This document shows, in pieces, positions 22,051 to 39,047 of a stretch of 39,106 nt of DNA (positions are counted from its first letter, which is position 1; each line of letters opens with the position of its first letter). The DNA lies in NCBI GenBank assembly GCA_017608295.1, contig JAFCGF010000029.1, positions 1 through 39,106 of the forward strand, given 5' to 3'. The notes beneath the pieces were generated by a model. That model did no database searches, was not told where the DNA came from, and saw only the letters and a program-made list of their open reading frames with translations. The stretch is from Candidatus Woesearchaeota archaeon. GTDB taxonomy: Archaea; Nanoarchaeota; Nanoarchaeia; Woesearchaeales; JAGVZT01. The position numbers were made by a program, and so were the translations under genes.

Positions 22051-22091
22051 CTGACCACTCAGTCAGCACAATAAAAAGGAGCACAACTACC

Positions 22092-22862
22092 ATGGTAAGA
22101 CGAGTAGTAAAACCGAAAGAGAAAGAACAGCTACCGGCCGCCATTGACTTTGGCGCGGATGCTGGATCGGGATTCGAAGGCACCAACAAAGATGACTTCG
22201 CTATCCCCTTCATAGCAATTCTGCAGGCACTCAGCCCGCAGTGTAAGCGCCAGGATGGAGCATACATCGAAGGCGCGGAAGAGGGTATGATCCTCAACTC
22301 AGTCACTCAGAACATCATCGATGGCGAGGCAGGTATCCGGGTGATCCCGGTAGCTTACCAACGCCGCATGACGGAATGGGCACTGCGTGAGAATGGTGGC
22401 GGATTTGGCGGTGAACATTTGCCAGAAGAAGCTCCCAGGATCATTGAAACCGATCACAAGAATCGGGACATCTTGGCCAACGGTAACCAGCTTGTGGATA
22501 CACGCAGCCACTTTGTTTTGATCCTGACCGATCAGGGACCGATCCCGGCAATCATCAGCATGTCTTCAACTCAGTTGAAGAAGTCCAAGCGCTGGATGTC
22601 GCTCATGCAGGGCCTCCGCATTGACAACAAGCCGATGCCGATGTTCGGGAATATCTTCCAACTGACCACCGTCCCCGAGTCCAATAAGGAAGGCGATTGG
22701 TATGGCTGGAAAATTGTACACGATTCCCAGGTTGCGGACCCAGAGCTGTATCAAGCGGCGAAGGATTTCAAAGAAGCAATCTTGGTAGGCTCGGTGAAAG
22801 TGGATCGGCCAACCGATGAAACTGAAGGTGATGACAAATCTGAAGACGACATCCCCTTCTAA
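22092..22862 (+). CDS. Putative single-stranded DNA-binding protein
   Basis: This 256-residue protein is probably the phage SSB or a close functional equivalent. The strongest sign is the acidic C terminus (GDDKSEDDIPF), the tail used by SSB proteins to bind partners. The body has KDDFAIPFIAILQALSPQCK, EEGMILNSVTQNIIDGEAGI-RVIPVAYQRR and an aromatic strand region, a pattern shared by phage proteins annotated as SSB-like in this position. It has a basic N-terminal arm (RRVVKPKEKEQ). It follows a 41-base spacer with GGAG and precedes the primase gene by 2 bases. Confidence 0.7.
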   Translation: MVRRVVKPKEKEQLPAAIDFGADAGSGFEGTNKDDFAIPFIAILQALSPQCKRQDGAYIEGAEEGMILNSVTQNIIDGEAGIRVIPVAYQRRMTEWALRENGGGFGGEHLPEEAPRIIETDHKNRDILANGNQLVDTRSHFVLILTDQGPIPAIISMSSTQLKKSKRWMSLMQGLRIDNKPMPMFGNIFQLTTVPESNKEGDWYGWKIVHDSQVADPELYQAAKDFKEAILVGSVKVDRPTDETEGDDKSEDDIPF

Positions 22863-22864
22863 TA

Positions 22865-24361
22865 ATGGCAAGCGACCTCACCCCTCCCCTCCCCTCCCAG
22901 TGTGAGGCGCTTGCCGCTTTGTTCGTTGGGCTGAACCGGGCACACGGTGAATTCCGTATATCCGGCAAAGGCCCGACGGGCAAGGTTATTGGCCAGGGCG
23001 TCACGGTGAAAGCACCGGCGACGCTTGAGCTGTGGCAGAAGCACCTTGACGGGAAGCAAGGACTTGGCATTGTGCCAATCCTGGCAGACAATCAGGCTCT
23101 ATGGGGAAGCCTCGACATTGATGTATATGACCTGGATCTGGTAGCATTAAACAACCAAGTGCAGGCATTGAAATTACCCCTAATTGTTATGAGAACAAAA
23201 TCCGGCGGCGCGCATTGTTTTGTGTTCCTGGAGAAAGCCCTGCCGGCAGTAGTGCTACGGGAACACCTGATCGCATGGTCCGCCTGGCTTGGCCATGGTG
23301 GCTGCGAAGTATTTCCGAAGCAGAACAAGTTGGCGGATGACGAGGATATTGGTAACTGGCTGAACATGCCATACTTTGAATCCGAACTCACCACCCGCTA
23401 TGCCCTGGACCTGGAAGGCAATGCCCTCTCCCTGGAAGACTTCCTGGCACAAGTAGACGCCAGGAAAACTACCGGTGATGGCCTGGCAGGAGTGGAAGGT
23501 CCCCGTGATGATCGATTACCGGAAGCGCCGCCATGCCTGCAATGCCTGGCAGTCCAGGGCATTGGTGCAGGCCAACGCAATGAAGCGCTCTTCAGCTTCG
23601 GTGTGTATGCCCGGACAGCTCACCCCGAGGACTGGGAAGATGTTCTGGAAGGACTGAACCACGAGCTATTTGATCCGCCGCTGAAGTCCCGGGAAGTGCA
23701 GGGCGTTATCAAGAGCCTGAATCGGAAAGAGTATTTCTACCGATGCAACGAACCACCACTGCGACCCCTCTGCAATAAGCCACTTTGTCAACAGCGCAAG
23801 TTCGGCATTGGTGGGGGTGGCACAGCGGTGGATTTGACTGGCTTGGTTCGTGTTGAGACACGGCCTCCAATCTGGTTCGCTGATGTGGATGGTGCCCGGA
23901 TCCGCCTGGAGACAGCAGATCTACAAATTCAATGTCGCTTTGCGAAGCGCTGCATGGAGGAGATCGGAAAGTGGCCCCGGCCGATGAAGCCAATTGAATG
24001 GCAGAATCTGGTGAACAAGCTCATGGATTGCATGGAGCTTGTTGAAGTCCCGGATGACAGTAGTCCGGAGGGCTTATTCTGGGACCATCTCTGGGGCTTC
24101 GTGGAAGCTGCCGGATCCCAGGCGCGGACGAAGGATGAGCTGGCGCTCATGCACAAAGTGTGGCGGGAGGATGGATACATCTGGTTCCGTTCCCCTGGAT
24201 TAGTGGAATGGTTAAAGCGGCAGCGATTCACGGAGCTATCTCAACCGAAGATCTATGCCACACTCCGCCAGGACGATATGGTCAAGCATCACCAATTCAC
24301 TATCAAAGACAGCAAGGGCAAAGATCGATGCGTCCAATGCTGGGGAGTACCTGAACCATGA
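22865..24361 (+). CDS. Archaeo-eukaryotic-type primase (AEP, TOTE-like)
   Basis: This 498-residue protein likely makes RNA or DNA primers for replication. AEP motifs are visible in order: SLDIDVYDLD with the DxD metal pair (D84, D86), RTKSGGAHCFVF with S113 and H117, and CEVFPKQNKL then GNWLNMPYF, close to the EIFPKQ...GN..LP pattern of TOTE-type primases. The C-terminal half has a Cys cluster (YRCNEPPLRPLCNKPLCQQR, about 296-315), perhaps zinc- or iron-sulfur-binding, and a helical part. There is no DnaG-type TOPRIM. It overlaps the next gene by ATGA. Confidence 0.82.
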   Translation: MASDLTPPLPSQCEALAALFVGLNRAHGEFRISGKGPTGKVIGQGVTVKAPATLELWQKHLDGKQGLGIVPILADNQALWGSLDIDVYDLDLVALNNQVQALKLPLIVMRTKSGGAHCFVFLEKALPAVVLREHLIAWSAWLGHGGCEVFPKQNKLADDEDIGNWLNMPYFESELTTRYALDLEGNALSLEDFLAQVDARKTTGDGLAGVEGPRDDRLPEAPPCLQCLAVQGIGAGQRNEALFSFGVYARTAHPEDWEDVLEGLNHELFDPPLKSREVQGVIKSLNRKEYFYRCNEPPLRPLCNKPLCQQRKFGIGGGGTAVDLTGLVRVETRPPIWFADVDGARIRLETADLQIQCRFAKRCMEEIGKWPRPMKPIEWQNLVNKLMDCMELVEVPDDSSPEGLFWDHLWGFVEAAGSQARTKDELALMHKVWREDGYIWFRSPGLVEWLKRQRFTELSQPKIYATLRQDDMVKHHQFTIKDSKGKDRCVQCWGVPEP

Positions 24362-24606
24362 TATTCTCAGCCGACATATTCGAGCATTCCGAAGCGCTGA
24401 ACCAGAAGCGGAAGGTCGCTCATGCCACTGTAGAGCTGGATGATGGGGGAAGCCTGCACTGCGCCTCTTTGTATTACATCACGTTCAAGAACAATCATGG
24501 AAAGGAGCAGAGCGCCTTGGTCTACGATTACAATATGGCGAATGGAGATCCATGGGAACTTCTCCGAGTGGCAATGAATCAATGCCGGGCAGAGCATAGT
24601 GGATGA
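24358..24606 (+). CDS. Hypothetical small protein
   Basis: This 82-residue protein is coupled to the primase by ATGA. It is mixed alpha/beta (ADIFEHSEALNQKRKVAHAT, GGSLHCASLYYITFKNNHGK, NGDPWELLRVAMNQCRAEHS) with no recognised family. The homing-type endonuclease gene overlaps its last 8 bases, so that gene entered beside it. Confidence 0.6.
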   Translation: MIFSADIFEHSEALNQKRKVAHATVELDDGGSLHCASLYYITFKNNHGKEQSALVYDYNMANGDPWELLRVAMNQCRAEHSG

Positions 24607-24925
24607 TACTAAAGAAGCCTTTGAAGAGCGGATCATGCCGCTCACAGAGACCGGTTGTTGGATTTGGCTGGGTGCAGCTTCAACACGGAAGTGTGGAGCA
24701 ACTTCATACGGTAATGTCTGGGTGAATGGTATTTCGTACCGAGTACATCGATACGCCTATGAACTATACATCGGGCCAATTCCTCCTGGGAAGAAGTTAT
24801 TACATAGTTGTGATCACCCCTGGTGTACTAATCCACAACACCTTACTCCCGGGACACAACAACAGAACATTGATGACATGATGCGGAAGGGGCGACATGG
24901 TTCAAGGCGAGCTCATGCACCGTGA
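24599..24925 (+). CDS. HNH homing endonuclease (HNH_3 type)
   Basis: This 108-residue free-standing nuclease has a short N-terminal GCWIWLGAA region and the HNH_3 core LLHSCDHPWCTNPQHLTPGT followed by NIDDMMRKGR (about residues 67-100). This is the standard signature of phage HNH homing enzymes, with the Cys pair binding zinc. It starts with GTG at 24599 and overlaps the helicase gene at its end. It is probably a selfish mobile element rather than part of replication. Confidence 0.88.
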   Translation: MDDTKEAFEERIMPLTETGCWIWLGAASTRKCGATSYGNVWVNGISYRVHRYAYELYIGPIPPGKKLLHSCDHPWCTNPQHLTPGTQQQNIDDMMRKGRHGSRRAHAP

Positions 24926-26378
24926 ATTGATCCTGGGTCCACCTGGGACCGGAAAAACTACGGAGCTGATCAGCATTGTTGAGAAGCATCTGGAGCAAGG
25001 CATCGCCCCCGATCGTATTGGCTTCGTTTCCTTTACCCGGAAAGCAGCGCACGAGGCACAGGAGCGGGCTGGGTTGCCCAAGGATGCCGTTCCCTGGTTC
25101 CGTACGATTCACTCCCTTGCCTACTATTGCCAGGGTCTCCGCCCGGCGGATGTGATGAATGCCCAACAGTACAAAGTCTTCGGTGAGGAGTTTGGCTTAA
25201 ACTTCACAGGGCGCTCAGATGATACGGGCCTCTTTGAGAAGCGCGGTGACAATGCCATCCTGAACGCCATCAACCTTGCCCGGAATAAATTGACCACGCC
25301 CCGAGAAGAAGCGGCACAGATGGGATTGAAAGAGCCCGTGTGGCGAATTGAGCAGGTGGCAAAGTGGCTGCGTGAGTGGAAAGAGCGGGAGCTCCTCTGG
25401 GACTTCACGGATATGCTGGAGAACTTTCAAAAGGGTCCGCGCCTGGAAGTGCTCATTGTGGATGAAGCCCAGGACCTGACCGCCTTGCAGTGGCAGGTGG
25501 TGAACAAGCTGGCAGCCGAAGTCCGATTCCTCTATGTCGCCGGCGATGATGATCAGGCCATTTATGCTTGGGCGGGCGCGGACATCAAACCCATGATCTA
25601 TTTTGATGGCCATGTTCGCACCCTGGATCAAAGCTATCGAACTCCGAAGGCTGTGCAGGATGCCTCCCTGGTGGTGGCCGCTCAAATCACGGATCGGATT
25701 CCCAAGATCTGGAAACCGAGAGACGCCATTGGATACTTCTCGCAGAATGATAGCCTGGAAGATGTTATCCCGGAAGAGGGGTCCTGGATGTTCCTGGCCC
25801 GAACCAATTATGGTTGCACCCAGATGAAAGAGCACCTGGAGTCCCTTGGAATACTCTACCGAACAGGATCCGGATCAAGCCTCTCCCCGACAATTGTTGG
25901 CGCCATCCGTACCTGGGAAGCTCTGAGACGTGGTTCCCGCATGCCAGCATCTGCTGTGATTCCGATCTATGAGCACATGACAGCGGGCATTGGATACAAG
26001 CGAGGCAGCAAGGCCTCCCTGGATAGGTTCACGGGAATGGTTACCATTGTAGATCTGCAGAAGCGCTATGGATTGCTGGTGGATGCACCCTGGTTCGCGG
26101 TCCTGACCAAGCTGGGCTATGCTCAAATCGCTTACGTGAAGCGTGTCCTGAGTCGCAGGACCGGCTTAGAAGATGGGCGGTGCTATGTAGGCACGATTCA
26201 TTCAGTCAAAGGCGGCGAGGCGGATCACGTGGTTCTCTCTCCGGACATTCCGCCAGCCACCAAACAATTCTCCAATGCGGAAAGGCGCGTATGGTATGTG
26301 GGAGCCACCCGATCCCGGGAGAGCCTCAGGATCCTGCGTCCGTTGACTGATCTTAATGTGTCTTTAATGTTTAATTAA
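24897..26378 (+). CDS. UvrD/Rep-like superfamily 1 helicase
   Basis: This 493-residue helicase has Walker A LGPPGTGKTT (residues 13-22), motif Ia in VSFTRKAAHEAQERA, motif II VDEAQDLTALQ (D189-D193), motif III AGDDDQAIYAWAGAD, motif IV LDQSYRTPKAV, and motif VI in GTIHSVKGGEADHVVLS with YVGATRSRESL. All are standard for UvrD/Rep proteins. It is compact: the 2B-like insertion is short. A second start at 24915 (MHRELILG) is possible. It ends just before a promoter. Likely unwinds DNA at the fork or in recombination. Confidence 0.93.
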   Translation: MVQGELMHRELILGPPGTGKTTELISIVEKHLEQGIAPDRIGFVSFTRKAAHEAQERAGLPKDAVPWFRTIHSLAYYCQGLRPADVMNAQQYKVFGEEFGLNFTGRSDDTGLFEKRGDNAILNAINLARNKLTTPREEAAQMGLKEPVWRIEQVAKWLREWKERELLWDFTDMLENFQKGPRLEVLIVDEAQDLTALQWQVVNKLAAEVRFLYVAGDDDQAIYAWAGADIKPMIYFDGHVRTLDQSYRTPKAVQDASLVVAAQITDRIPKIWKPRDAIGYFSQNDSLEDVIPEEGSWMFLARTNYGCTQMKEHLESLGILYRTGSGSSLSPTIVGAIRTWEALRRGSRMPASAVIPIYEHMTAGIGYKRGSKASLDRFTGMVTIVDLQKRYGLLVDAPWFAVLTKLGYAQIAYVKRVLSRRTGLEDGRCYVGTIHSVKGGEADHVVLSPDIPPATKQFSNAERRVWYVGATRSRESLRILRPLTDLNVSLMFN

Positions 26379-26395
26379 TGTGACTATGATATCAT
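26353..26395 (+). promoter_or_regulatory. Phased-heptamer promoter 1
   Basis: Three TTAATGT heptamers start at 26353, 26364 and 26375, exactly 11 bp apart. An extended -10 (TG at 26387-26388, TATCAT at 26390-26395) follows 15 bp after the last heptamer start. The same layout, including the 15-bp distance, occurs at 33975-34017. Transcription would start near 26402 and drive the modification block. The repeat design suggests an activator contacting one face of the helix. Confidence 0.75.
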
Positions 26396-26454
26396 GTACC
26401 CATAAATCAGCAGGCACTGGCCAACCTGCACCAAACCAGGCCAAGGAGCTCAAC

Positions 26455-26982
26455 ATGAAAACATTCGTCATTAACATTAACCCCAAGCACACGAAGCTGG
26501 TAGCAGCTTATGAAACTGTACACGAAGCTGAACAGCATGTCCTGGACGCCAAGCGCGATAAGGATTTCCTGGTAGCTGCATCCTGCGAAGAGGACCTACA
26601 TAACAGGCTTTCTTTGGCTACCATGAGCGAGCTGTACAATAGCACGCAGCCTGAAGACAAGCAGATCAAACACTTCAGCGATAAGACGTCCGGTGCGAAG
26701 CGGACTATGGCAGCCCTGCACGAAGGCAAGAAAACCACCAAGAAATCCGGTGGCAAAGTAGGTCGCCAGACTTACATCAGGCAGCGCCTGGAAGCTGGCA
26801 AGCCTTTGACAATTCAGGTCCTGGTTAAAGAGCTGATTGAAAAAGGGTACGAAACCGATGAAAAGAAGGCTCGGGGCAACTTGCTTCTTGCTGTCTCAAT
26901 TCTCGGTAATGCTAAAAAGCAGAAGGAGCCACTGCATGTCACCAGAACAGAAGACACCCTGCATCACGTCGCTGATTCTTGA
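26455..26982 (+). CDS. Hypothetical DNA-modification-block protein, possibly DNA-binding
   Basis: This 175-residue protein is the first gene after promoter 1. A longer frame opens at 26380, but that start lies upstream of the promoter's -10, so ATG 26455 with AAGGAG in front is chosen. It contains ATMSELYNSTQPEDKQIKHF then SDKTSGAKRTMAALHEGKKT, a pattern seen in short phage and bacterial proteins with a LYN...KRF..K..A.KR motif, and a basic linker KKTTKKSGGKVGR. Its C-terminal part looks helix-turn-helix-like (LTIQVLVKELIEKGYE). A DNA-binding or regulatory role is a guess. Confidence 0.65.
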   Translation: MKTFVININPKHTKLVAAYETVHEAEQHVLDAKRDKDFLVAASCEEDLHNRLSLATMSELYNSTQPEDKQIKHFSDKTSGAKRTMAALHEGKKTTKKSGGKVGRQTYIRQRLEAGKPLTIQVLVKELIEKGYETDEKKARGNLLLAVSILGNAKKQKEPLHVTRTEDTLHHVADS

Positions 26983-27376
26983 GGCATTCCACGAGGCAGG
27001 TCCCGCAGTATTCGCGGGGCCTGCTTCTTTGTTGGAACGCTATGAATCAGGTCGATTAGAAATTGAAGGTGAAGATTGGTGGTTGCGAAATCTGCAATAC
27101 ATCAAATATATTTTGAAGCCTTCCAACGAAGAGCTCATCGAATGCGCGGAGCTTTGCCAGCGGAAGAATCAAGCTTATGGCAGCCGAGGCATGTATGCCT
27201 TTGGAGCTAACGGCATCCGGATCCGTTCCGCGGATAAGCTTTATCGGTTCTTGAACCTGACTGAGCATGGCGGTGAGGAGCACGATGAATCTCTCCGGGA
27301 CTCGCTCCTAGATCTATTGAACTATGCAGCGCTGGCTGTCCTGGTTCTAAGGAAACAGCTTCCGTGTGCGGATTGA
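26936..27376 (+). CDS. DUF1599 / Nmad1-like protein (nucleotide modification associated)
   Basis: This 146-residue protein matches the DUF1599 family, also called nucleotide modification associated domain 1. Visible signature: LCQRKNQAYGSRGMYAFGAN, IRIRSADKLYRFLNL (R97, D100, K101) and ESLRDSLLDLLNYAALAVL (E118, D122, D126, N129-Y130). The family is related to all-alpha NTP pyrophosphatases and is often near base-modification genes. A longer in-frame start at 26837 overlaps the previous gene widely; ATG 26936 with AAGGAG is better. It may act on a modified nucleotide, but this is inferred. Confidence 0.75.
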   Translation: MSPEQKTPCITSLILEAFHEAGPAVFAGPASLLERYESGRLEIEGEDWWLRNLQYIKYILKPSNEELIECAELCQRKNQAYGSRGMYAFGANGIRIRSADKLYRFLNLTEHGGEEHDESLRDSLLDLLNYAALAVLVLRKQLPCAD

Positions 27377-28725
27377 ACCTCACCCTGGATGGTGACATCC
27401 AACAAATGAACTGGGCAATCCAGCATCGGGGCATACGCAGTTCAATCGCAGAGCATGGTCCCTGGAAGCTGGGCCATGTTCGCCTGCCAATCAATGAGCT
27501 CTCTGAATCCAGTGATCAGCCAATTCAACAAGACGGCTGGAGCTTTTTATTTGTCGGGGAGTTCTTTGATTGGAAGAAGTTTGATCCGTATGCCACTTGC
27601 GATACTCATGTCCTGGTTGGTGAGTGGCTGCGGCGAGTTTGGGAGGGTGAGAATCCAACCAACCTCTTCAAGGACATTGATTGGATGGGAGCTTTCATTG
27701 CTATTGATCCCGAGGACTGTGCCCATATCATCCAGGACTACTTAGCACAGAAGCCTCTCTATATTCACGAGGCATCCTGCACCATCTCTTCTGAAATTCG
27801 GGGCGTCATGGCTGGGCATGTGAATCATCCGTGGCCCGCCAATGATTTCTACCTGGGAAGCGTGGCCAAATTTGGTTATCATCCCGGCCCGGACACCATG
27901 ATCCAAGGCATCCAAAAGATGCCCCACGCCACTTACACCACCATTGATCCCGGTGATTCCAATGATCACACCATCCGACGAAGCTCCAAAGGCACTCTGC
28001 GACCTCGCCCCGGGAACATCCGGAAGCTCCTGGAAGAATCCATGAAGAAGCGACTCATCTCAGACCAACCCCTTGCCATGCTGGTGAGCGGCGGCCTGGA
28101 CTCAAGCATTGTCTACAAGCTCACGGAGCAGGCAGGCATGTTAGACCAGGTCAAAGTCTTCCACTGCCAAAACGGTGAAGAGCAATGGTTGGACGAGCTG
28201 GGCGTAAAAAATACGCAAATGTTGGAATGCCAGCAGGTCAAGATCGAAGACGCTATTTGGCTGAATGAAGGGCCAGTGGATCTTGGCTCTCTCCTGCCGC
28301 AGATTGCCTTAGCAAGGGCCATGAGTGGCTCACCAGTAGTTTTGACCGGCGATGGTGCTGATGAGCTCTTCGGTGGATATAGGAGGATGGCAGAATACGA
28401 CGCACAGCTTTCCGATATATTCCAGGAATTGGTCTACTATCATCTGCCCCGATTGGACAAGATCCCCATGAGCCACACCACGGAATTGCGAACGCCTTTC
28501 CTGGCCCGGCCAGTAATCGAAGCGGCGCTGGCTTTGCCTTATGCCGAGCGCATAGAGAAGCGGGCACTCAAAGCAGCCTTCCAGGATTTGATCCCGGAGA
28601 CCATTTTGAATAGGCCTAAGCAGCCACTGAAATCTGCCCGAGTCCTGTTCCAGCCAATGGAGTGGCGGATGCAGCTTATTGACGAAACAAGGAGAATGAT
28701 ACAAAATGAAATGCGAGACCTTTGA
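27364..28725 (+). CDS. Asparagine-synthase-type glutamine amidotransferase
   Basis: This 453-residue protein has both domains of class II amidotransferases. The N-terminal glutaminase starts with GTG so that the mature protein begins at Cys2 (MCGLNLTLDG), with the substrate-loop type RHG-like IQHRGIRSS and LGHVRLPINE. The synthase domain has the pyrophosphate loop VSGGLDSSIVYKL (242-248), TGDGADELFGGYRRM and LRTPFL. It is shorter than E. coli AsnB (about 554 aa). In a phage the substrate need not be aspartate; given its neighbours, a role in making a DNA-base amide or a nucleotide precursor is a reasonable hypothesis. Confidence 0.9.
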   Translation: MCGLNLTLDGDIQQMNWAIQHRGIRSSIAEHGPWKLGHVRLPINELSESSDQPIQQDGWSFLFVGEFFDWKKFDPYATCDTHVLVGEWLRRVWEGENPTNLFKDIDWMGAFIAIDPEDCAHIIQDYLAQKPLYIHEASCTISSEIRGVMAGHVNHPWPANDFYLGSVAKFGYHPGPDTMIQGIQKMPHATYTTIDPGDSNDHTIRRSSKGTLRPRPGNIRKLLEESMKKRLISDQPLAMLVSGGLDSSIVYKLTEQAGMLDQVKVFHCQNGEEQWLDELGVKNTQMLECQQVKIEDAIWLNEGPVDLGSLLPQIALARAMSGSPVVLTGDGADELFGGYRRMAEYDAQLSDIFQELVYYHLPRLDKIPMSHTTELRTPFLARPVIEAALALPYAERIEKRALKAAFQDLIPETILNRPKQPLKSARVLFQPMEWRMQLIDETRRMIQNEMRDL

Positions 28726-29278
28726 CGAGCTCTTCCGCCTGCAGATGGCGGTGATTCGAAAATACGACCCAATAGAGAACGCAAATGGCCTGCTACAAAC
28801 TCCCATGGTGCCCGTGGCCTTATCCTGCAGGTTCGGCCAGGCAAGGATAAAGGATTTTGCCTGGCGCATCACTGAGGAGCTTATGGAAGCCCGCCTGGAA
28901 CTAACCCGATTGGATCGAAGTGATGCCGCCCGGGAAGAGGTGATCGATGCCCTGCACTTCATGATCGAGCTCTGCATTCTTGCTGATGTGGAACCGACTG
29001 CCCCGATCCAATTCATCAAGCAGCGCCGCCGGAGCACGGACGAAGCGATTATGGCCGTGATTTACCACCTGGGAATGGCTTGCAACGAGCTGAAGAATCG
29101 ACCCTGGAAGCAGACACAAACCGAAACAGATGAGTCCGATTTCCGGGGCTGGATTCAAGCGGCACTTACTGACCTGGTGCTCCTTATGGACTCCGTCGGA
29201 ATTGCACGCGAAGAGATCTTGGACCACTACACCAAGAAAAACAAAGTAGTAATGAAAAGACCCGAGGAGGGCTACTAA
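28706..29278 (+). CDS. All-alpha NTP pyrophosphatase (dimeric dUTPase/dCTPase-like)
   Basis: This 190-residue protein has the metal-binding pattern of all-alpha NTP pyrophosphatases: EELMEARLEL (E57, E58, E61) then EEVIDALHFMIELC (E78, D81), i.e. EExxE...ExxD. The C terminus, HYTKKNKVVMKRPEEGY, matches the ending of dimeric dUTPases (Y.KKN.V...R...GY). Such enzymes hydrolyse dUTP or dCTP to the monophosphate. In T4 the equivalent gp56 supplies dCMP for hydroxymethylation and removes unmodified dCTP, a plausible role here beside the TS-fold gene. Confidence 0.85.
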   Translation: MKCETFDELFRLQMAVIRKYDPIENANGLLQTPMVPVALSCRFGQARIKDFAWRITEELMEARLELTRLDRSDAAREEVIDALHFMIELCILADVEPTAPIQFIKQRRRSTDEAIMAVIYHLGMACNELKNRPWKQTQTETDESDFRGWIQAALTDLVLLMDSVGIAREEILDHYTKKNKVVMKRPEEGY

Positions 29279-30534
29279 TGAAAGCGATTGGAATAACATG
29301 CGGAATTGGATCCATGCTGCAAGGCGCAAAGGCAGCCGGATTCGACGTCATAGGCAATATCGAATGGCGTAAATATTACCACAAGCGGGACACCGAAGGC
29401 AGGAACACCTTCCGAGAGAATTATCCCGGGGCATTCTTATCGCTCTCCATTGACGACGTTGATGTGGAAGCGCTGCGAGGCACCATCGATCTTGCCATGG
29501 GCCACCCTGAGTGTGGCAAGTACAGCCAGATGAATGTTTACAATAAGGGCTACGCTGAAGGCTTAAAGGATCCCGGTGACATTCCCCTATTCTGTGAGAT
29601 GGTGGACGCACTTCAACCGCGCTTCTTTGTTATGGATGATCTGCCTAAGAGCTTGGGCGCTTTCACCATGGAAGACTATGCCCGCATGATGCCGGGCTAC
29701 GACCTATATCCGGAATGGATCTCCAACTACCACTACGGCAACTGCCAAAAGAATCGCCGGCGCTTATTCATGATCGGGGCGCTGAAGAGCGAGGAGTTCG
29801 TATTCCGTCCAGGTGAGTTCATGCACGACATCGCAATCAAAGATGTGATCGGTGACTTGCTGGATACTGCGGGCGATGGAATGAATGGCCACAACGTGCA
29901 TGTCCTGGATGAAAACTGCGGCAAGGGCAAGAGCTGCCTGGAACTGGACCGCAAGGAAACATGGCGAACTGTGCAGAAGCAGTTTCTAGACGGTATCCGG
30001 GAAGGCGACCGCCTTTTCTATTGGGCCAAGGATGGCGCCCGAAAGCCGCGCATTGGATTTGGCACAGGCTACTGGAACGCGCATTCCCATGTCCTTGATG
30101 GTGGCTCCGCTGCATTGCATCCGATTCACAAGATTCCATTGACTGTGCGAGAGCGCGCAAGGATCCAGGGCTTCGCTGATGACTTCCTATTCTATGGCAT
30201 CAAGACTGATGAAGAAGGCAAGTGGAATATTGAGAAGAATAGCGACCTGGTGAAGCAGACCGGGAAGGCTATGCCAATCCAATTCTGCACCTATGCCGCC
30301 TTTTTGGTTGCTACCCATCTTGGCAAGGCCTTCATGCCTAAGGAGATGATCACTGGGAAGCGCTGTGCGAAGGACAACCCGGAAATCGATGCAGCCAAGT
30401 TCTGGTTCTGCGACAACATTGGTTATGCCGATCAAGAAGGCGCTTGCCAAGCTTGCTGGCTCCGGACGCAATGCAAGAAGCTCCACGATCAAATAGATCT
30501 ACCAGAAACGGAGGTGGAAGATGCCACGGTGTGA
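29278..30534 (+). CDS. Variant DNA cytosine-5 methyltransferase
   Basis: This 418-residue protein keeps the C5-methyltransferase order. Motif I is GIGSMLQGAKAAGFDVIG, motif IV is GHPECGKYSQM with likely nucleophile C79 (usual PPC or SPC, here PEC), the ENV position reads MDDLPKSL (D120-D121-L122), motif VIII is NCQKNRRRLF (Q157-R162), then PLTVRERARIQGFADDFLF and a motif-X-like KQTGKAMPIQF. Loss of the ENV glutamate to Asp is unusual. The C terminus adds a Cys cluster C363, C378, C390, C393, C399. It may methylate cytosine or transfer a different group. Confidence 0.88.
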   Translation: MKAIGITCGIGSMLQGAKAAGFDVIGNIEWRKYYHKRDTEGRNTFRENYPGAFLSLSIDDVDVEALRGTIDLAMGHPECGKYSQMNVYNKGYAEGLKDPGDIPLFCEMVDALQPRFFVMDDLPKSLGAFTMEDYARMMPGYDLYPEWISNYHYGNCQKNRRRLFMIGALKSEEFVFRPGEFMHDIAIKDVIGDLLDTAGDGMNGHNVHVLDENCGKGKSCLELDRKETWRTVQKQFLDGIREGDRLFYWAKDGARKPRIGFGTGYWNAHSHVLDGGSAALHPIHKIPLTVRERARIQGFADDFLFYGIKTDEEGKWNIEKNSDLVKQTGKAMPIQFCTYAAFLVATHLGKAFMPKEMITGKRCAKDNPEIDAAKFWFCDNIGYADQEGACQACWLRTQCKKLHDQIDLPETEVEDATV

Positions 30535-30832
30535 TGCGTTAGTATCCTCTGGGATGGGCTGGCGCGCGAATCGATGCAGCCACCCAGGTAAGGTTGAAGT
30601 CGATGGGAAGCATTTCTGCGGCATCCATAATCCGAATAAGTTGCCAAGCAAGTCACAGCAACGATCGGAGCTTATCAAGGCACAAAGAAGAAACCGGCGG
30701 GAGTTCGAATCGGATGCGATCAAGCTGGTTCGTGAACTGGCTAAAGAGAATCATCCAAGGGCGCACCTCTTGGTTGATGCGGACCTGATGGCCAATAACT
30801 ATATCAAGCAAAAACTGGAGGATCTAGCATGA
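30521..30832 (+). CDS. Small zinc-finger-like protein
   Basis: This 103-residue protein has a Cys/His set at its N terminus: RCDALVSSG, NRCSHPGKVEVDGKHFCGIH (about residues 18-37), typical of small phage zinc-binding proteins. The rest is helical and charged (QRRNRREFESDAIKLVRELA). GGAGG lies 6 bases before the ATG and the gene overlaps the methyltransferase by 14 bases. Its tight coupling to the methyltransferase and the TS-fold gene suggests it belongs to the modification block. Confidence 0.72.
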   Translation: MPRCDALVSSGMGWRANRCSHPGKVEVDGKHFCGIHNPNKLPSKSQQRSELIKAQRRNRREFESDAIKLVRELAKENHPRAHLLVDADLMANNYIKQKLEDLA

Positions 30833-31617
30833 AAATCTACCCTGATTTCCCGGCCGTAATTCAGGCCACTAGTGATAAGATCCGGACGCAGGCTTATGAC
30901 GTGCACACGGACAAATGGCAGGGCTTCGACATTGCTGATCGTCCGGAAGCCGCCATGAAAGAGATAATGAATTGGAACTTCCAGGTGCCGCTTGGTCACG
31001 AATCGCTGATGCTTTATGCAGAGCAGATTCATCCGAACATGCCCTGGGCGAATGATCACTTCCATGAGCGTGTGGCGGGCGAACCGGTTAATCCAGGGGA
31101 AACCTGGTTGACCTGGCCTTGGGCAAACAAGGCGGATGAGTCTCGATGCTTCCCAGGTGGAAAGTTCAGCCACACATACATGGAGCGCTATTGGCCAAAG
31201 AACAAGCCGGAAGACAGCGCCTCGCCAATGTGGGGACACCGATTCAAGTATGGTGATTTGATGGACGTGGTGAACTTGCTGGAAGATCAGCCGGAAACGC
31301 GCCAGGCATATTTGCCCATCTTCTTCCCGGAGGATACTGGAGCGCTGCACGGAAATCGGGTGCCCTGCACATTGGGCTACTTCTTCATGATGCGCCACGG
31401 GTATCTGCATATTCACTATCCGATCCGCTCATGCGATTTCTACCGGCATTTCCGGGATGACTTATATCTCACCACGCGCCTCTTGCTATGGGTGCTGGAC
31501 GAGCTCCGTCAGCGGGATGATGGTTGGCATGCTGTGAAGCCTGGATTCTTCTCCATGTGGATTGGCAGCTTGCACCTATTCATCAATGACTACAACAGGC
31601 TCTATGGCAATGAATAG
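30829..31617 (+). CDS. Thymidylate-synthase-fold enzyme, probable dCMP-type (hydroxy)methyltransferase
   Basis: This 262-residue protein has a clear TS-fold core. ASPMWGHRFK matches the GPVYG strand, LEDQPETRQAYLPIFFPED matches the LK.NP.SRR...WNP region, RVPCTLGYFFMMRHGYLHI holds the nucleophile C180, IRSCDF is the RSxD motif (R200-D203) and WIGSLHLFIND corresponds to GDAHIY (H249, Tyr replaced by F251). Counting 11 residues from R200 gives D211 where TS has Asn177; T4 dCMP hydroxymethylase has Asp179 there. dCMP specificity is thus likely. The first ~120 residues are divergent. Confidence 0.78.
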   Translation: MKIYPDFPAVIQATSDKIRTQAYDVHTDKWQGFDIADRPEAAMKEIMNWNFQVPLGHESLMLYAEQIHPNMPWANDHFHERVAGEPVNPGETWLTWPWANKADESRCFPGGKFSHTYMERYWPKNKPEDSASPMWGHRFKYGDLMDVVNLLEDQPETRQAYLPIFFPEDTGALHGNRVPCTLGYFFMMRHGYLHIHYPIRSCDFYRHFRDDLYLTTRLLLWVLDELRQRDDGWHAVKPGFFSMWIGSLHLFINDYNRLYGNE

Positions 31618-32059
31618 GCCGAACCATATAGCGTACTTTCTGGGCATGGCGGAGTTGGTTGCTACTCGCGGAACATGCGCCAGAAGGGCCGTGGGATGCG
31701 TTCTAACGAACATTCGTGGTCACGTGCTTGCAACAGGGTTCAACGGGGTGGCCAGTGGCTTAGAACACTGCACGGATAAACCCTGCCCCGGGGCCAAATG
31801 CGCCTCGGGTGAGGGCCTGGAACTCTGTGAAGCAATCCACGCCGAGCAGAACGCTCTCCTGCAATGCCATGATGTGCAGACGATCGAGGCGTGCTATTGC
31901 ACAACTGCACCCTGCATCACCTGCACAAAGCTCTTGCTGAATACAAGCTGTCAAGTGATCTGGTTCTTGGAGGATTACCCTCAAGCAGCGGCAGCCAAAA
32001 AACTATGGATAAGCGCTGGGAGGATCTGGGGCAATGCAGCAGAGTCTATTCTCGACTGA
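31610..32059 (+). CDS. dCMP deaminase-like zinc enzyme
   Basis: This 149-residue protein is a cytidine/deoxycytidylate deaminase superfamily member: IHAEQNALLQ (H77, E79) and TTAPCITCTKLL (C102, C105) provide the zinc site and proton shuttle, and TRGTCARRAVGCVLT with ATGFNGVASG is standard for dCMP deaminases. An extra Cys-rich insert (HCTDKPCPGAKCASG) is also usual for the phage type. It would feed dUMP to ThyX. ATG 31604 is an alternative start. It overlaps the TS-fold gene and the polymerase gene. Confidence 0.9.
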   Translation: MNRPNHIAYFLGMAELVATRGTCARRAVGCVLTNIRGHVLATGFNGVASGLEHCTDKPCPGAKCASGEGLELCEAIHAEQNALLQCHDVQTIEACYCTTAPCITCTKLLLNTSCQVIWFLEDYPQAAAAKKLWISAGRIWGNAAESILD

Positions 32060-33971
32060 ACAAATAGCACCAATACCGAAGACGGGCTGGACAGCGCCTG
32101 CGAGCTTCCCGAACCTGGAAGCGGCAAAGACCCTTTGCATTGATGTGGAAACCTGGGATCCCAACCTAAAGGAGAAGGGTCCTGGGTGGGCTACCGGCGA
32201 TGGCCACCTCTGCGGAATTGCCGTGGGCACGGATGATGGCCACAGATGGTATTTCCCTATGCGCCATGAAATTGGTGGTGGCAACATGGATCCCGCCACG
32301 GTGCTTCGCTGGGCCAAAAGGGAATTCAGCCGTCCAGGACAATTGAAGGTCGGTGCCAATCTGCTATATGATGTGGGCTGGCTCTCGACTGAAGGCGTGC
32401 ATGTGGAAGGCCCTTTCTTTGATGTGCAATGGGCGGAAGCGCTCCTGGACGAGCATCGATACAGATACTCCCTGGATAGCATTGCCAAAGATCGGGGCAC
32501 CGGTGGCAAAGTATCCGACGCGCTGTATCGCTGGTGTTCTGCTGCGTATGGTGGAAAGCCCACGGCTCGAGGCCAGGGCGGAAACATCCACCGAGCGCCG
32601 GCTTCCCTGGTTGGCCCGTATGCCGAGGGCGATGTGGATCAGCCACTCCGAATTATGGAACAGCAGATCCAGGAGCTGGATGAGCACGAGCTCACAAAGC
32701 TCTGTGACCTGGAACATCGCCTTCTGCCAATGCTGCATGCCATGCGAGCACGAGGCGCATTGATCCGTAGTGACTGGCAGAAGCTGCGTGACCAGGTGCA
32801 GAGTAAGATTATCATCCCGCCAGGCGTGGACATCTGGTCCCGGGATAGCCTCGCGCACTATTGCCGAGGGAAGGATATAGCTTATCCGATGACCGCCTCC
32901 AAACGGCCCGTGCCGAGCTTTGTTGGGCCTTGGCTAGAAGTGCATCTCCCGGAGATTGCGGCCGCCAGGAAATACGACAAAGCCGCCGGCACCTTCTTTG
33001 ATGGCTATATGGGCAAAGCGGTAAAGAACAAAATTCATTGCCAATTTCATCCGCTGCGTTCCGATGCTGGCGGCACAGTGTCCGGGCGCTTCTCAAGCTC
33101 GGATCCCAATCTACAGAACATTCCGTCCAGGGACAAGGAATTGGCGCCACTTATTCGCGGTCTATTCATCCCAGAAGAGGGCGACCTCTGGTGTAAGCAG
33201 GACTACTCACAAATTGAATATCGCTTGCTGGCTCACTTTGCTCGAGGCACGGGAGCCAACGATGTCCGGGAGAAATATGTCCTGGATCCGAAAACCGATT
33301 TCCATCAAATGGTCTCTGAGATGAGTGGCCTGGAACGCAAGCCCGCCAAGATCCTGAACTTCGGAATGATATATGGGCAGGGTGTAGCAACAACTGCGGC
33401 CACCATGGGCTGTACTGTGTACGAGGCCGAGCGCTTCCGGGAGCAGTACTTTGAGAAGGCACCATTTGTCAAGCACACATTTGACTGGGTGGCGCGAGTG
33501 GCTGGCCAGCGTGGTTATCTGCGCTCCATCGGTGGGAGACTGCATAGATTTGTCCACTGGGAGCCACGTGATTGGGGTCTGCGTGATGACTTCAAATTGA
33601 CCACGGATCGAGATGGCTTGGAAGCTCGGATTCGGGAGCTACAGGCCAAGGCGCGAGAAGCGGGAACCAAAGTCCCCGGCGGCGGCACGGTCCGGGCCAA
33701 GACTCATAAGGCGCTCAATTCCCTACTGCAAGGCAGCGCTGCCGACATAATGAAGATCGCTATGGTTGATGTATGGGAGAGCGGCGTCTGCGACGTCCTG
33801 GGAGCGCCAGTGCTTACTGTGCACGATGAATTGGATTGGTCGGTACCGGACACCCAGGAGGGCAGGGAAGCCATTCGGGAATCCCAGCACATCATGGAGA
33901 ACTGCGTCAAGCTGGATGTGCCTCTGTTGGTTGATACGGAGTGGGGATCGAATTGGGCCAACGTGAAATAG
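32034..33971 (+). CDS. polA: DNA polymerase I (family A) with 3'-5' exonuclease
   Basis: This 645-residue replicative polymerase has an exonuclease part with CIDVETW (D37, E39), GANLLYDVGWLS and a Y...D pair (YAEGDVDQPL), so proofreading is likely. The polymerase part has SGRFSSSDPNLQNIPSRD, motif A KQDYSQIEYRLLAHF (D390), motif B RKPAKILNFGMIYGQG with Phe443 at the position of E. coli Phe762, and motif C LTVHDELDW (H597-D598-E599). No 5' nuclease domain is present. It ends before promoter 2. Confidence 0.96.
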   Translation: MQQSLFSTEQIAPIPKTGWTAPASFPNLEAAKTLCIDVETWDPNLKEKGPGWATGDGHLCGIAVGTDDGHRWYFPMRHEIGGGNMDPATVLRWAKREFSRPGQLKVGANLLYDVGWLSTEGVHVEGPFFDVQWAEALLDEHRYRYSLDSIAKDRGTGGKVSDALYRWCSAAYGGKPTARGQGGNIHRAPASLVGPYAEGDVDQPLRIMEQQIQELDEHELTKLCDLEHRLLPMLHAMRARGALIRSDWQKLRDQVQSKIIIPPGVDIWSRDSLAHYCRGKDIAYPMTASKRPVPSFVGPWLEVHLPEIAAARKYDKAAGTFFDGYMGKAVKNKIHCQFHPLRSDAGGTVSGRFSSSDPNLQNIPSRDKELAPLIRGLFIPEEGDLWCKQDYSQIEYRLLAHFARGTGANDVREKYVLDPKTDFHQMVSEMSGLERKPAKILNFGMIYGQGVATTAATMGCTVYEAERFREQYFEKAPFVKHTFDWVARVAGQRGYLRSIGGRLHRFVHWEPRDWGLRDDFKLTTDRDGLEARIRELQAKAREAGTKVPGGGTVRAKTHKALNSLLQGSAADIMKIAMVDVWESGVCDVLGAPVLTVHDELDWSVPDTQEGREAIRESQHIMENCVKLDVPLLVDTEWGSNWANVK

Positions 33972-33974
33972 CCT

Positions 33975-34017
33975 TTAATGTTACGTTAATGTCTATTTAA
34001 TGTGAGTGTGGTATCAT
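33975..34017 (+). promoter_or_regulatory. Phased-heptamer promoter 2
   Basis: Three TTAATGT heptamers start at 33975, 33986 and 33997, again 11 bp apart, and TATCAT at 34012-34017 with TG at 34009-34010 follows 15 bp after the last. The layout equals promoter 1. It sits in a 73-base gap before the small-gene run. A T-rich leader (TTTATATTTTT) follows. Confidence 0.75.
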
Positions 34018-34044
34018 GTCTTTATATTTTTAACGGAGGCCACC

Positions 34045-34362
34045 ATGAGGAACAAAGCGCAACAACTAGTAGACACACTCAAGCTACTTAAAATCGAATC
34101 TGAGTATATTCGCACCCAGGATCCCGAGATCGAAGATGATATGGTAAAGATCACCGAGACCCTTCATGTGCAGTATGCGCCTTATCAACAACAGTCCTTG
34201 ATCCTGGTTCAGGAAAAGGGCCAAACATTCCAAGAGGTGGATGCCTACTCAAACCCAACCAATGCAGCTCGCGCTATTGCGAGTCTTCTGGGTCGCTTAC
34301 CAAGACAAGCTGAACAGCAGACCATGGAAATGAATACTCAATTCCAGCATGTCCGGCTATAG
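34045..34362 (+). CDS. Hypothetical small protein, first after promoter 2
   Basis: This 105-residue protein starts at ATG 34045 behind GGAGG; a longer frame from 34006 would begin before the expected transcription start and is rejected. It is helical and Gln-rich (NKAQQLVDTLKLLKIESEYI, YAPYQQQSLILVQEKGQTF), with a beta-like middle. No family was recognised. As the first gene behind the promoter it may be strongly expressed. Confidence 0.65.
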   Translation: MRNKAQQLVDTLKLLKIESEYIRTQDPEIEDDMVKITETLHVQYAPYQQQSLILVQEKGQTFQEVDAYSNPTNAARAIASLLGRLPRQAEQQTMEMNTQFQHVRL

Positions 34363-34371
34363 GAGGTTACT

Positions 34372-34656
34372 ATGACGAACAAACCCAGAGAAAAAGTCAT
34401 CTTCGATGATGAGAATAGAACCCCTCGGGAAAAGATCCTTGACATGGTCCAGAAAGAATTGGATGAAGCTAGGGCTAACCCGGAAGAGCCGGGGATTTTA
34501 ATTGCCCGGGAATCAGAGAACTGTGTTTCAGTTTGTGCTCATGCGTCAGATGAGTTTATCTTCCACATGATGATGAACCTGCTTGGCAACATGGAGCCGG
34601 AGACTCGGATGAGGATGCTTATGCACATGGTGCTAGGAGGTAAAGATGAAAGTTGA
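34372..34656 (+). CDS. Hypothetical acidic small protein
   Basis: This 94-residue acidic protein follows an AGGAGG site. Segments include REKILDMVQKELDEARANPE, LIARESENCVSVCAHASDEF and a Met-rich C terminus (MEPETRMRMLMHMVLGG). No family was recognised. It overlaps the next gene by 11 bases. Confidence 0.6.
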   Translation: MTNKPREKVIFDDENRTPREKILDMVQKELDEARANPEEPGILIARESENCVSVCAHASDEFIFHMMMNLLGNMEPETRMRMLMHMVLGGKDES

Positions 34657-34885
34657 TCGAGAAAAACGCCAAAAAAGACTCAATGAAGCGTTGCTCTGTT
34701 TGAGTGAAGCCAAGCGCGGTTTTTCGGTTTTCGTGGAATGCGAAGATGGTGAATCTATGCGCTCGATCGGAAGCCGAAGCGGTGGTATGGTCATGGCGGT
34801 AGCTTTAGAGGCATTATCAGTCATGCCAGTAGAAGCCATTGCTGAAGTATTGCAACAACTGGCCGAGCGAAAGGCCACTGGATGA
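34646..34885 (+). CDS. Hypothetical small protein
   Basis: This 79-residue protein has a basic, helical start (DREKRQKRLNEALLCLSEAK) and a helical end (ALSVMPVEAIAEVLQQLAER). It has an AGGAGG site and shares ATGA with the next gene. No family was recognised. Confidence 0.58.
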   Translation: MKVDREKRQKRLNEALLCLSEAKRGFSVFVECEDGESMRSIGSRSGGMVMAVALEALSVMPVEAIAEVLQQLAERKATG

Positions 34886-35070
34886 ATAAAGCATACGTTG
34901 GCATGACGCTGATGAAGTTCGAAGAATTAGGTATTGAAGTTGATGGGGTTCCGCTGAATATCCAACCCAAGAATCTCATCGGCTTCTTGCCTGTGTTCGC
35001 CTCCCTGGAGGTGGCGAAAGAAGCGGGTTGGGCTGATGCCTTGCCGGTTAATATTGGCAAAGAGGAGTAG
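34882..35070 (+). CDS. Hypothetical small protein
   Basis: This 62-residue protein is coupled to the preceding gene by ATGA. It is mixed alpha/beta (KFEELGIEVDGVPLNIQPKN, LPVFASLEVAKEAGWADALP). No family was recognised. Confidence 0.55.
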   Translation: MNKAYVGMTLMKFEELGIEVDGVPLNIQPKNLIGFLPVFASLEVAKEAGWADALPVNIGKEE

Positions 35071-35074
35071 CACC

Positions 35075-35452
35075 ATGCAGAACGAAGTCGTATCAAACTT
35101 TAAGAAAGCCCACGACTGGCTTATTCAGGCAATTAGTAACTCAGATGGCACAGACCTGGAGACACTGGTTTTTCTATTGAAGCTGGTCAAATGTCGGGCG
35201 GAGGTTGCCGGAGTTCAAACCAAGCATCAAGCAGCGCTGTCAGCCCAGTTGCCACGCAGCCACAAGACTTGGACAGAGCAGGAGCAGCTTGTAGTCATTG
35301 AACAAATGGAGCTGCACGGCGTCGATGACAAGAGTGTGCCTATCACTGCGGCATTAGTCCGGGTTATTGCAGCCCGCAGCCCGCAGCCCGCTTCGCAGCT
35401 TTGGCTCTTTACAGGCCAAAATGCACGAGCTTCGGAATGTGCCAGAGATTGA
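35075..35452 (+). CDS. Hypothetical helical protein
   Basis: This 125-residue protein starts at ATG 35075, 7 bases after GAGGAG; an earlier in-frame ATG at 35036 overlaps the preceding gene. It is helical (NFKKAHDWLIQAISNSDG, LETLVFLLKLVKCRAEVAG) with a C-terminal part having a short repeat (ARSPQPAS). No family was recognised. Confidence 0.55.
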   Translation: MQNEVVSNFKKAHDWLIQAISNSDGTDLETLVFLLKLVKCRAEVAGVQTKHQAALSAQLPRSHKTWTEQEQLVVIEQMELHGVDDKSVPITAALVRVIAARSPQPASQLWLFTGQNARASECARD

Positions 35453-35467
35453 GAAGGTGGAGTGACT

Positions 35468-35644
35468 ATGAAGAAATGCGGAAAGTGTGGATATGTTGAT
35501 ATGAATGCCGTGCCCGATTGGGACTGCATGAAATGCGGGCATGATCCAAGAACCAGCGAGCCGCTCTTCTGGTTTGCGATGCTCGCCCCCCTGGTACTGG
35601 GTTGGCTCCTGGGTGGCTGGTATTTCTTCGGGTGGTTTGCATGA
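35468..35644 (+). CDS. Zinc-ribbon plus membrane helix protein
   Basis: This 58-residue protein has two CxxC pairs (KKCGKCGYVDMN and DWDCMKCGHDP) forming a probable zinc ribbon, followed by one membrane helix (FWFAMLAPLVLGWLLGGWYF). GTG 35462 is possible, but ATG 35468 is better spaced from GGTGGAG. Such zinc-ribbon-anchored proteins are common but mostly uncharacterised. Confidence 0.65.
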   Translation: MKKCGKCGYVDMNAVPDWDCMKCGHDPRTSEPLFWFAMLAPLVLGWLLGGWYFFGWFA

Positions 35645-35811
35645 TGAATTCCATCCAGGGAAGGCCCTGCCTATATTGTGGTACTGAGGGCTGCGACTCA
35701 GCAGGCAAGGTGTGCCGGTATTGCAAGGGCACCGGTACCCAGGTGGTCCGCGGAGATTTGGCCACTGTGCCTATAAAGGAGAATAAAAATGACCACGCTG
35801 ATAACAAGTAG
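35641..35811 (+). CDS. DnaJ-type zinc-finger-like small protein
   Basis: This 56-residue protein has CLYCGTEGCDSAGKVCRYCK-G-TG, a Cys pattern like half of a DnaJ zinc finger (CxxC...CxxCxGTG). It is coupled by ATGA to the previous gene and its 3' end overlaps the next gene. A chaperone-like or regulatory zinc function is possible but unproven. Confidence 0.62.
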   Translation: MMNSIQGRPCLYCGTEGCDSAGKVCRYCKGTGTQVVRGDLATVPIKENKNDHADNK

Positions 35812-36118
35812 ATGGCGGTATGAGAATGGTGACTGGGATGGGAAAGACTTCTCCAATCGGAGGGTCCGAGAGCAGTCGATATTCTTAGAAATGGTCTGCG
35901 ATGGGAAGAAGCTGGAATTCATCGGCGGGCCTACAGGCTTCGAATCCTATTATGTGGCCTCCCTGGTTTGCGCGTATGGCGGTCAGCCCCGCCCGGAGGA
36001 GCTTTGTATATGTGCCGGCACGATAAACAGCTGGCCCGCCTGCTATGTGCCCTGGGACGAGGTTATGAGTTTTGTGGAGAGTGCTATAGCAGCTTATAAA
36101 GAAGGAGGACAAGGATGA
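35789..36118 (+). CDS. Hypothetical small protein
   Basis: This 109-residue protein follows AAAGGAG. It has a beta-rich first half (SRWRYENGDWDGKDFSNRRV, GKKLEFIGGPTGFESYYVA) and a helical end (WDEVMSFVESAIAAYKEG). Three Cys residues cluster in the middle (LVCAYGG, LCICAG). No family was recognised. Confidence 0.58.
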   Translation: MTTLITSRWRYENGDWDGKDFSNRRVREQSIFLEMVCDGKKLEFIGGPTGFESYYVASLVCAYGGQPRPEELCICAGTINSWPACYVPWDEVMSFVESAIAAYKEGGQG

Positions 36119-36351
36119 AAATCAATAAGAAAAAGAACAGGGATCAAAGACGGAAACGAGCTCAACCTGCCATGGTCTCCCTGGACGACACCGAGGACGC
36201 CCTGACGAAGAAAACTCAAACGGGTAAGAAGGCTCCCGGGTTCGTAACTGCGGATGGAAAGGAGGGCATCACGTATGCCCATAAGGGCGGCCAGCTCAAG
36301 CACCAATCGCGGAGTAAGTATTCCCCAGGAGGCAAAGATGGGGGATCTTAA
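36115..36351 (+). CDS. Hypothetical basic small protein
   Basis: This 78-residue protein is rich in Lys, Arg and Gln (NKKKNRDQRRKRAQP at the start, GGQLKHQSRSKYSPGGKD at the end) and likely disordered. It could bind nucleic acid. It is coupled by ATGA to the gene before, and its final codons overlap the next micro-gene's start region. Confidence 0.55.
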   Translation: MKINKKKNRDQRRKRAQPAMVSLDDTEDALTKKTQTGKKAPGFVTADGKEGITYAHKGGQLKHQSRSKYSPGGKDGGS

Positions 36352-36424
36352 CTTAGCCCTCGCAGCCATCGTGGTTTTCTTCGTCGTGACGGAGCTGATT
36401 CCATATTTATGGAGCTTTCTATGA
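36338..36424 (+). CDS. Single-helix membrane microprotein 1
   Basis: This 28-residue frame is below usual gene-finding cut-offs. It has AGGAGG 5 bases before its ATG and reads through one hydrophobic helix (LALAAIVVFFVVTELIPYLW). Its stop overlaps the next micro-gene by ATGA. The strong site and coupling support translation. Confidence 0.5.
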   Translation: MGDLNLALAAIVVFFVVTELIPYLWSFL

Positions 36425-37135: not shown

Positions 37136-37144
37136 GGAGGCACA

Positions 37145-38278: not shown

Positions 38279-38333
38279 TGCTGGCTATGTGTGGAGAGCG
38301 GGGTGCTGAGTGGCCTTGGTCTCTAGGCACACT

Positions 38334-38548: not shown

Positions 38549-38560
38549 GAGGTTAATACA

Positions 38561-39045: not shown

Positions 39046-39047
39046 GC

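Follow-up and report, generated by a model that had tools for sequence, protein, structure and literature searches.

We analyzed a 39,106-base stretch of DNA (the window), an IMG/VR virus record with terminase, portal, protease, capsid and tail genes within its first third, and found that a compact gene cassette at positions 26936–32059 probably serves cytosine hypermodification of some kind (rough probability 0.8). The basis of this reading was observed in the genes themselves, their motifs, their predicted folds and their co-occurrence in other viruses. The cassette consists of seven open reading frames (ORFs) in the same orientation, overlapping or abutting one another, and is followed by a family A polymerase gene. 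A previous sequence-only reading of this DNA had named six adjacent genes, and Pfam and PHROGs searches recovered all six as co-oriented ORFs in the order given; they do form an abutting and overlapping run, but a seventh, small ORF lies between the methyltransferase gene and that of the thymidylate synthase (TS)-fold enzyme. All window features located below are on the forward strand.

The enzymes that carry the argument are an AsnB-type glutamine amidotransferase or ATP-dependent amide ligase (27364–28725; 453 residues; PF00733, E = 1.7e-36), an all-alpha nucleoside triphosphate (NTP) pyrophosphatase (dUTPase_2/MazG-like; 28706–29278; PF08761, 5.9e-8; phrog_12184, 7.2e-22) that is probably a dCTP/dUTP pyrophosphatase, a C5-methyltransferase variant with a Cys-rich tail (29278–30534; DNA_methylase PF00145, 5.7e-18), a TS-fold enzyme of the deoxycytidine monophosphate (dCMP) type (30829–31617; phrog_160, 2.8e-27; Thymidylat_synt Pfam, 0.0096, below cut-off) and a dCMP deaminase (31610–32059; PF00383 dCMP_cyt_deam_1, 1.5e-13; phrog_174, 7.5e-30), whose ORF is open from 31562 and whose likely start, by inspection, is the ATG at 31610. 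As to how these enzymes act together, we tentatively propose, at slightly under even odds, that dCMP receives a C5 group from the TS-fold enzyme, that the AsnB-type protein contributes glutamine nitrogen and that the base is tailored on DNA by the methyltransferase-like protein; every one of these reactions, and the final base, is something we infer.

Co-occurrence of the cassette genes in other viruses

A methyltransferase profile led to 28 other IMG/VR loci, whose methyltransferases are 41–51% identical to that of the window. Searches of the whole records found AsnB in 27/28 (the miss, L033, is a 10-kb fragment) and TS in 25/28 (the misses, L016, L022 and L033, are fragments of 5–10 kb); within the fetched stretches alone the label counts were lower (AsnB 25/28; TS 20/28). 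In all 27 AsnB-bearing records, AsnB and the methyltransferase share a strand, with AsnB upstream and within ~1.6 kb (25 from the gene map; L014 and L034 by coordinates). These co-occurrence counts indicate that the gene set is not due to chance. The sequence-only reading had named genomes in which these genes do not co-occur as the outcome that would speak against it, and what we found was the same set in other phages. AsnB was also considered as a metabolic passenger, which was rejected on its 27/28 co-occurrence with the methyltransferase.

Other enzymes of nucleotide or DNA metabolism were present in the 28 fetched stretches as well, namely NTP pyrophosphatases of either of two kinds (21), dCMP deaminases (19), N4/N6-type methylase-like genes (10) and DUF1599-like genes (4). 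The 25 AsnBs labelled there form 23 clusters at 80% identity, with L009/L010 and L011/L022 as close pairs (AsnBs at least 80% identical), which suggests that the gene order is old.

An AsnB-centred set gave 75 loci, which together with five loci known already are the best 80 of 432 candidates. Twenty of the 75 (and 2 of 80 TS-centred loci) lay on contigs of the first set, and setting these 20 aside left 55, of which six had both methyltransferase and TS, 32 had TS only and 17 had neither. The 32 loci with AsnB and TS and without the methyltransferase represent 20 AsnB clusters at 80% identity. Among 20 whole records positive for AsnB and negative for the methyltransferase (16 AsnB clusters at 80% identity; chosen by size from 50 candidates), a PF00145 gene was found in 0/20 and TS in 12/20, ten by PF00303 and two (L060 and L078) by the TS profile in the stretch.

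Two further proteins were observed in related cassettes. A small uracil-DNA-glycosylase-like protein (weak PF03167, E = 0.031; HPSGxNR-like motif; L014:7985–8431) often precedes AsnB; its cluster covers 15 loci, none of them in the window, and searching iteratively from the L014 protein returned 8. An N4/N6-methylase-like protein with NGTPYP, which we take to replace the NPPY motif, is found alongside AsnB and TS where phages lack the C5-methyltransferase (L003:11340–12251; L064:3413–4306), and N4/N6-methylase-like genes were present in 12/49 AsnB loci without the C5-methyltransferase.

The variant methyltransferase and its closest known relatives

The description of this protein in the sequence-only reading, as a variant C5-methyltransferase with a Cys-rich tail, was confirmed. 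HPEC takes the place of PPC, DDLP that of ENV and Lys330 (codon 30265–30267) that of the motif-X Asn, with E78, C79, D120 and K330 invariant (119/119 rows) and the four tail Cys kept in 118–119/119 rows of an alignment made of the window protein and 118 of the best 120 of 542 matches (fusion P0016 excluded). The active-site Arg162 is retained, and Asp120 replaces the ENV Glu in 119/119 rows. An AlphaFold2 model (predicted local distance difference test score, pLDDT, 93.4) had HaeIII, 3g7u, DNMT1, CmoX 8YF3 and HhaI as its best VIA-align matches; the window protein has the C5-methyltransferase fold and the nucleophilic Cys. A reading as a simple restriction-type methyltransferase was rejected in view of the fixed variant motifs and the regular partner genes.

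In the Lys330 column, 11 other phage C5-methyltransferases (CmoX and TurkishDelight apart) have Asn (7), Met (2), Leu (1) or Lys (1), and the sole Lys, in Lactococcus phage CHPC1175, is unsure because the gene is incomplete in the fetched stretch. A single methyltransferase relative, L114, has the ordinary Asn and Glu; its 37.7-kb record is without AsnB, which we count in favor of the proposed reading. Some cassettes carry tandem double copies of the variant methyltransferase (L027:4422–6829; L023:8806–11468), with Asp in place of Glu78 in the second L027 copy, and the L170 record (G067) holds a distant methyltransferase match (E = 2.2e-23).

The closest known system is CmoA/CmoX/CmoY, which is near to the window cassette and not identical with it. 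As set out in passages of PMC12783734 (December 2025), it proceeds from carboxy-S-adenosylmethionine (Cx-SAM) to 5-carboxymethylcytosine in DNA and then to glycine ligation by an asparagine-synthetase homologue. The same passages report that CmoX Arg350, which stands for HhaI Asn304, touches the carboxymethyl group of Cx-SAM, that an engineered M.MpeI N374K, with Lys, also takes Cx-SAM and acts as a carboxymethyltransferase, that host CmoA is enough in E. coli, that cmoA in the same phage is usual, not universal (4257 CmoA vs 5615 CmoX), and that one cluster of CmoY homologues carries a glutamine-amidase domain and has ammonia as its proposed substrate (PMC12783734).

CmoX of Synechococcus phage S-B43 is like the window methyltransferase in having a basic residue at the motif-X Asn and in lying beside an asparagine-synthetase-like ligase gene. 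Streptomyces phage TurkishDelight has three genes of the CmoA/CmoX/CmoY kind, its ligase with a glutamine-amidase domain sitting between the CmoX-like and CmoA-like genes, and the window likewise has an AsnB-like ligase with an amidase domain beside a C5-methyltransferase homologue; our comparison with the cluster of A0A7T0Q3R0 was made through the TurkishDelight ligase (24% identity), which may be A0A7T0Q3R0. In contrast to CmoX, the window enzyme has HPEC for SPPC, Lys330 for Arg350, DDLP for ENVP and altered adenine-pocket residues, and local identity is only 21–23% between the methyltransferases and 24% between the amidase-type ligases. A dCMP-type TS is moreover a regular partner in the window family, whereas the word 'thymidylate' is absent from the main text of PMC12783734. 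The published CmoX survey demanded SPPC and Arg350, so that the window family would go uncounted (PMC12783734).

These likenesses suggest an alternative that we consider improbable, in which the methyltransferase transfers the carboxymethyl group of host Cx-SAM to cytosine C5 at short sites, with Lys330 acting as Arg350 does, and AsnB amidates the product to 5-carbamoylmethylcytosine. Lys330 does occupy the CmoX Arg350 column in 119/119 rows, but CmoX's adenine-binding Phe and Asp and the ENV Glu are changed in the window family. Because the locus-scan pattern included the Lys motif, the 28 scanned loci are no test of Lys330 conservation; the six methyltransferase loci found through AsnB all carry it (6/6; the L039 ORF is broken or split), whereas AsnB is also present in records without any C5-methyltransferase gene, and its usual partner is a dCMP-type TS, which would block C5. 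The activity of M.MpeI N374K, the sufficiency of host CmoA and the amidase-domain CmoY cluster all favor the alternative (PMC12783734), and host-made Cx-SAM is a possible source of the cofactor.

CmoA itself, however, was found in none of 49 virus records. With the family model it was detected in 0/30 IMG/VR records (the window, 28 relatives and L003) and 0/20 AsnB records, 19 of them new, where records may be fragments, and the S-B43 CmoA control was detected, yet under the curated cut-off (115.6 of 193.3 bits; E = 2.5e-34). It was likewise not found in one host-linked genome, a Myxococcaceae metagenome-assembled genome containing a phage contig that matches L034 in length and range (completeness unknown; binning may be wrong), the one locus that bacterial genomes yielded for host inference, nor by tblastn with the S-B43 protein, nor by an iterated search of fetched loci, a set without a positive control.

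The TS-fold enzyme, the AsnB-type ligase and the proposed pathway

The TS-fold enzyme has the TS fold (model pLDDT 89.2), the catalytic Cys and an Asp at position 177 in E. coli numbering. This dCMP-type Asp, singled out in the sequence-only reading, is D211 and was present in 155/156 rows, with Thr or Ser at 181 (E. coli 147; T181 in the window) in 155/156, where the 156 rows count the window twice and include repeated contigs. According to passages of the MetaGPA study, positions 177 (Asp) and 147 (not His) mark cytosine-modified phage contigs (PMC8670742). Both window residues match the cytosine-modified type, supporting the earlier view that cytosine is the target and that modification takes place at the nucleotide stage. 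With a separate supply of dTMP from ThyX, also encoded in the window (37426–38046; PF02511, 1.3e-42), the TS-fold enzyme is not required to make it.

The reaction may be hydroxymethylation, methylation or hydroxylation. It is conceivable, though unlikely, that the enzyme belongs with the flavin-dependent dCMP hydroxylases of the RB69/AfhB kind, with the other proteins building an amide-bearing ether on the 5-hydroxyl, and we treat this as an open branch of the proposed pathway. AfhB (9iqu/9iqc) was the top PDB match of the TS profile at E = 2e-10, narrowly ahead of MilA (1.3e-9), with weaker matches to Lactobacillus casei TS, first its dCMP-accepting N229D mutant (4.9e-7), and T4 dCMP hydroxymethylase (6.3e-6); the same profile scored the RB69 protein at 43.5 bits and that of T4 at 28.8 bits. 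Phe stands at the Tyr209 position, as in AfhB, in 149/156 rows. In a structure search, scores for hydroxymethylase and hydroxylase were tied, and families outside the match lists remain possible. His207 was found in 145/156 rows where T4 dCMP hydroxymethylase has Gly, in an active-site loop that presumably has a folate-site role. According to passages of PMC13390438, the RB69-type enzyme yields 5-hydroxy-dCMP. As a member of the TS superfamily with a C5-substituted dCMP as product, it resembles what we propose for the window enzyme. The difference between them lies in the motif (RSCD versus RSQN) and in the window cassette, where no sugar genes were seen.

A protein of ~270 residues, with no Pfam match above cut-off, adjoins the TS gene in 44 TS-centred loci and in two isolates, Serratia phage Serbin (L206:5141–5950) and Brevundimonas phage Strzyga (L207:5165–6004), whose proteins match the cluster profile (E = 1.7e-68 and 4.2e-104). 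Many such TS loci are without AsnB, both cultured isolates have the related TS and gave no AsnB match, and this protein may be an alternative partner of the window TS family.

The T4 gp42/gp56 pathway resembles the cassette in its TS-fold enzyme with Asp for dCMP, its NTP pyrophosphatase and its dCMP deaminase. In contrast, the window has AsnB and the variant methyltransferase instead, and no glycosyltransferase was found among the 50 window ORFs scanned against Pfam. The AsnB-type protein shares the glutaminase and PP-loop synthetase domains of asparagine synthetase B, with a nearly invariant N-terminal Cys2 and the SGGLDS loop retained (19-row alignment), but is shorter (453 vs 553 residues) and has GDG in place of GEG and a His at the position of the YDC-motif Asp. 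The retained catalytic Cys and ATP loop of a glutamine amidotransferase fit the earlier suggestion of a possibly amidated base.

In the pathway we propose, the NTP pyrophosphatase would convert dCTP and dUTP to monophosphates, and the TS-fold enzyme would place a one-carbon or hydroxyl substituent onto C5 of dCMP. The modified nucleotide would be phosphorylated and built into DNA by the phage polymerase. Using ATP and glutamine-derived ammonia, the AsnB-type protein would generate a nitrogen-bearing group, an amide or an amine, from that substituent or from a carboxylate added to it, and could act on either the nucleotide or the DNA. The methyltransferase-like protein would use Cys79 to tailor the DNA further, with Lys330 directed towards an acidic group on the donor or substrate, while dCMP deaminase and ThyX would maintain the dTTP supply. 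That this amounts to new chemistry, with a core of dCMP-type TS-fold enzyme and amidotransferase ligase working at the nucleotide or DNA level and independently of Cx-SAM, and a methyltransferase with a rebuilt cofactor pocket tailoring 5-substituted cytosine, is a more doubtful proposal, to which we give about one chance in three.

Several points weigh against the proposed pathway. The acceptor of AsnB is its weakest point, and a carboxylate source for AsnB was not identified where the methyltransferase is absent. Should the TS product sit at C5 in all cytosines, a methyltransferase-like enzyme directed at that position would need an unusual reaction. TS was absent from 17/55 AsnB-centred loci and from 8/20 whole AsnB records (records may be fragments); the TS-centred loci comprised 73 with TS and without AsnB, 4 with both and 3 unlabelled for TS, and whole TS records held AsnB in 9/29 cases and lacked it in 20/29. 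Eight of these nine are the TS-bearing records of 119–373 kb, all 8 of which hold AsnB, 65–101 kb from TS. This counts in favor of the pathway, but the eight, in which the variant methyltransferase was not found, look mutually related and hence represent few independent cases. The AsnB- and TS-centred lists are, furthermore, the best 80 of 432 and of 389 candidates.

This frequency of TS relatives without AsnB would also suit plain replacement of dC by 5-methyl- or 5-hydroxymethyldeoxycytidine through the TS-fold enzyme, accompanied by a methyltransferase of the ordinary protective type and an AsnB with an unrelated metabolic role, particularly as NTP pyrophosphatase was present in 38 and dCMP deaminase in 48 of the 73 loci. 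We regard this as the least likely of the alternatives: AsnB and the variant methyltransferase co-occur in a set order, and the unusual methyltransferase motifs are fixed. Across all sets, presence of the methyltransferase predicts AsnB and TS and presence of AsnB mostly predicts TS, whereas TS carries no implication for AsnB.

Gene neighborhood and significance

The first gene of the cassette encodes a protein of 146 residues from its ATG (26936–27376; ORF open from 26837) that had been labelled DUF1599/Nmad1-like. The label was borne out in part: Pfam gave a match below cut-off (PF07659, E = 0.0017; 19.1 bits vs the 25 required for gathering), whereas phrog_1485 matched at 3.3e-14, and a DUF1599-like gene of the same 146-residue length precedes AsnB in relative L012. 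The phrog_1485 match, the gene position and DUF1599-like genes in some relatives' cassettes support a probable DUF1599 kinship. The small ORF between the methyltransferase and TS genes (30521–30832) encodes a Cys/His-containing protein of 103 residues with no Pfam or PHROGs family. The family A DNA polymerase gene (32034–33971; PF00476, 8.7e-55) adjoins the cassette, and polymerase A genes are present too in the stretches of many relatives.

The earlier placement of the cassette behind one promoter was not supported, as promoter-like sites in 24500–34500 were at the shuffled level (8 found vs 7.7 expected). Terminator-like sites showed no overall excess over the shuffled level either (7 found, 8.8 expected); a 14-bp hairpin with a short T-run lies at 26993–27027, within the beginning of the DUF1599-like gene. 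Upstream of a UvrD-like helicase and the cassette, window positions 19811–24925 hold an SNF2-type helicase, two proteins that take their names from gp33 and gp34 of cyanophage Pam3, a TOTE-type primase and an HNH endonuclease. Among annotated phages, megablast gave no match for window 24897–39106, and protein searches with the methyltransferase and AsnB gave distant matches only (6 and 8 records; best 26% identity).

Iyer et al. (2013) may already have touched on this set in their computational survey of base-modification genes in phages. Among the matches listed from the open-licence PMC literature, no paper describes exactly this gene set, and to that extent the earlier statement that no described pathway has it holds, although the close CmoX/CmoY pathway was published in December 2025.

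The cassette points to widespread phage DNA modification outside the count of the published CmoX survey, with relatives of the cassette enzymes numbering in the hundreds or more (542, 1845 and 3142 matches). A related TS gene is present in existing isolates, so that the chemistry is open to direct testing. An amide- or amine-bearing cytosine, if true, would give DNA chemistry a new handle and phage defence a new target or shield.

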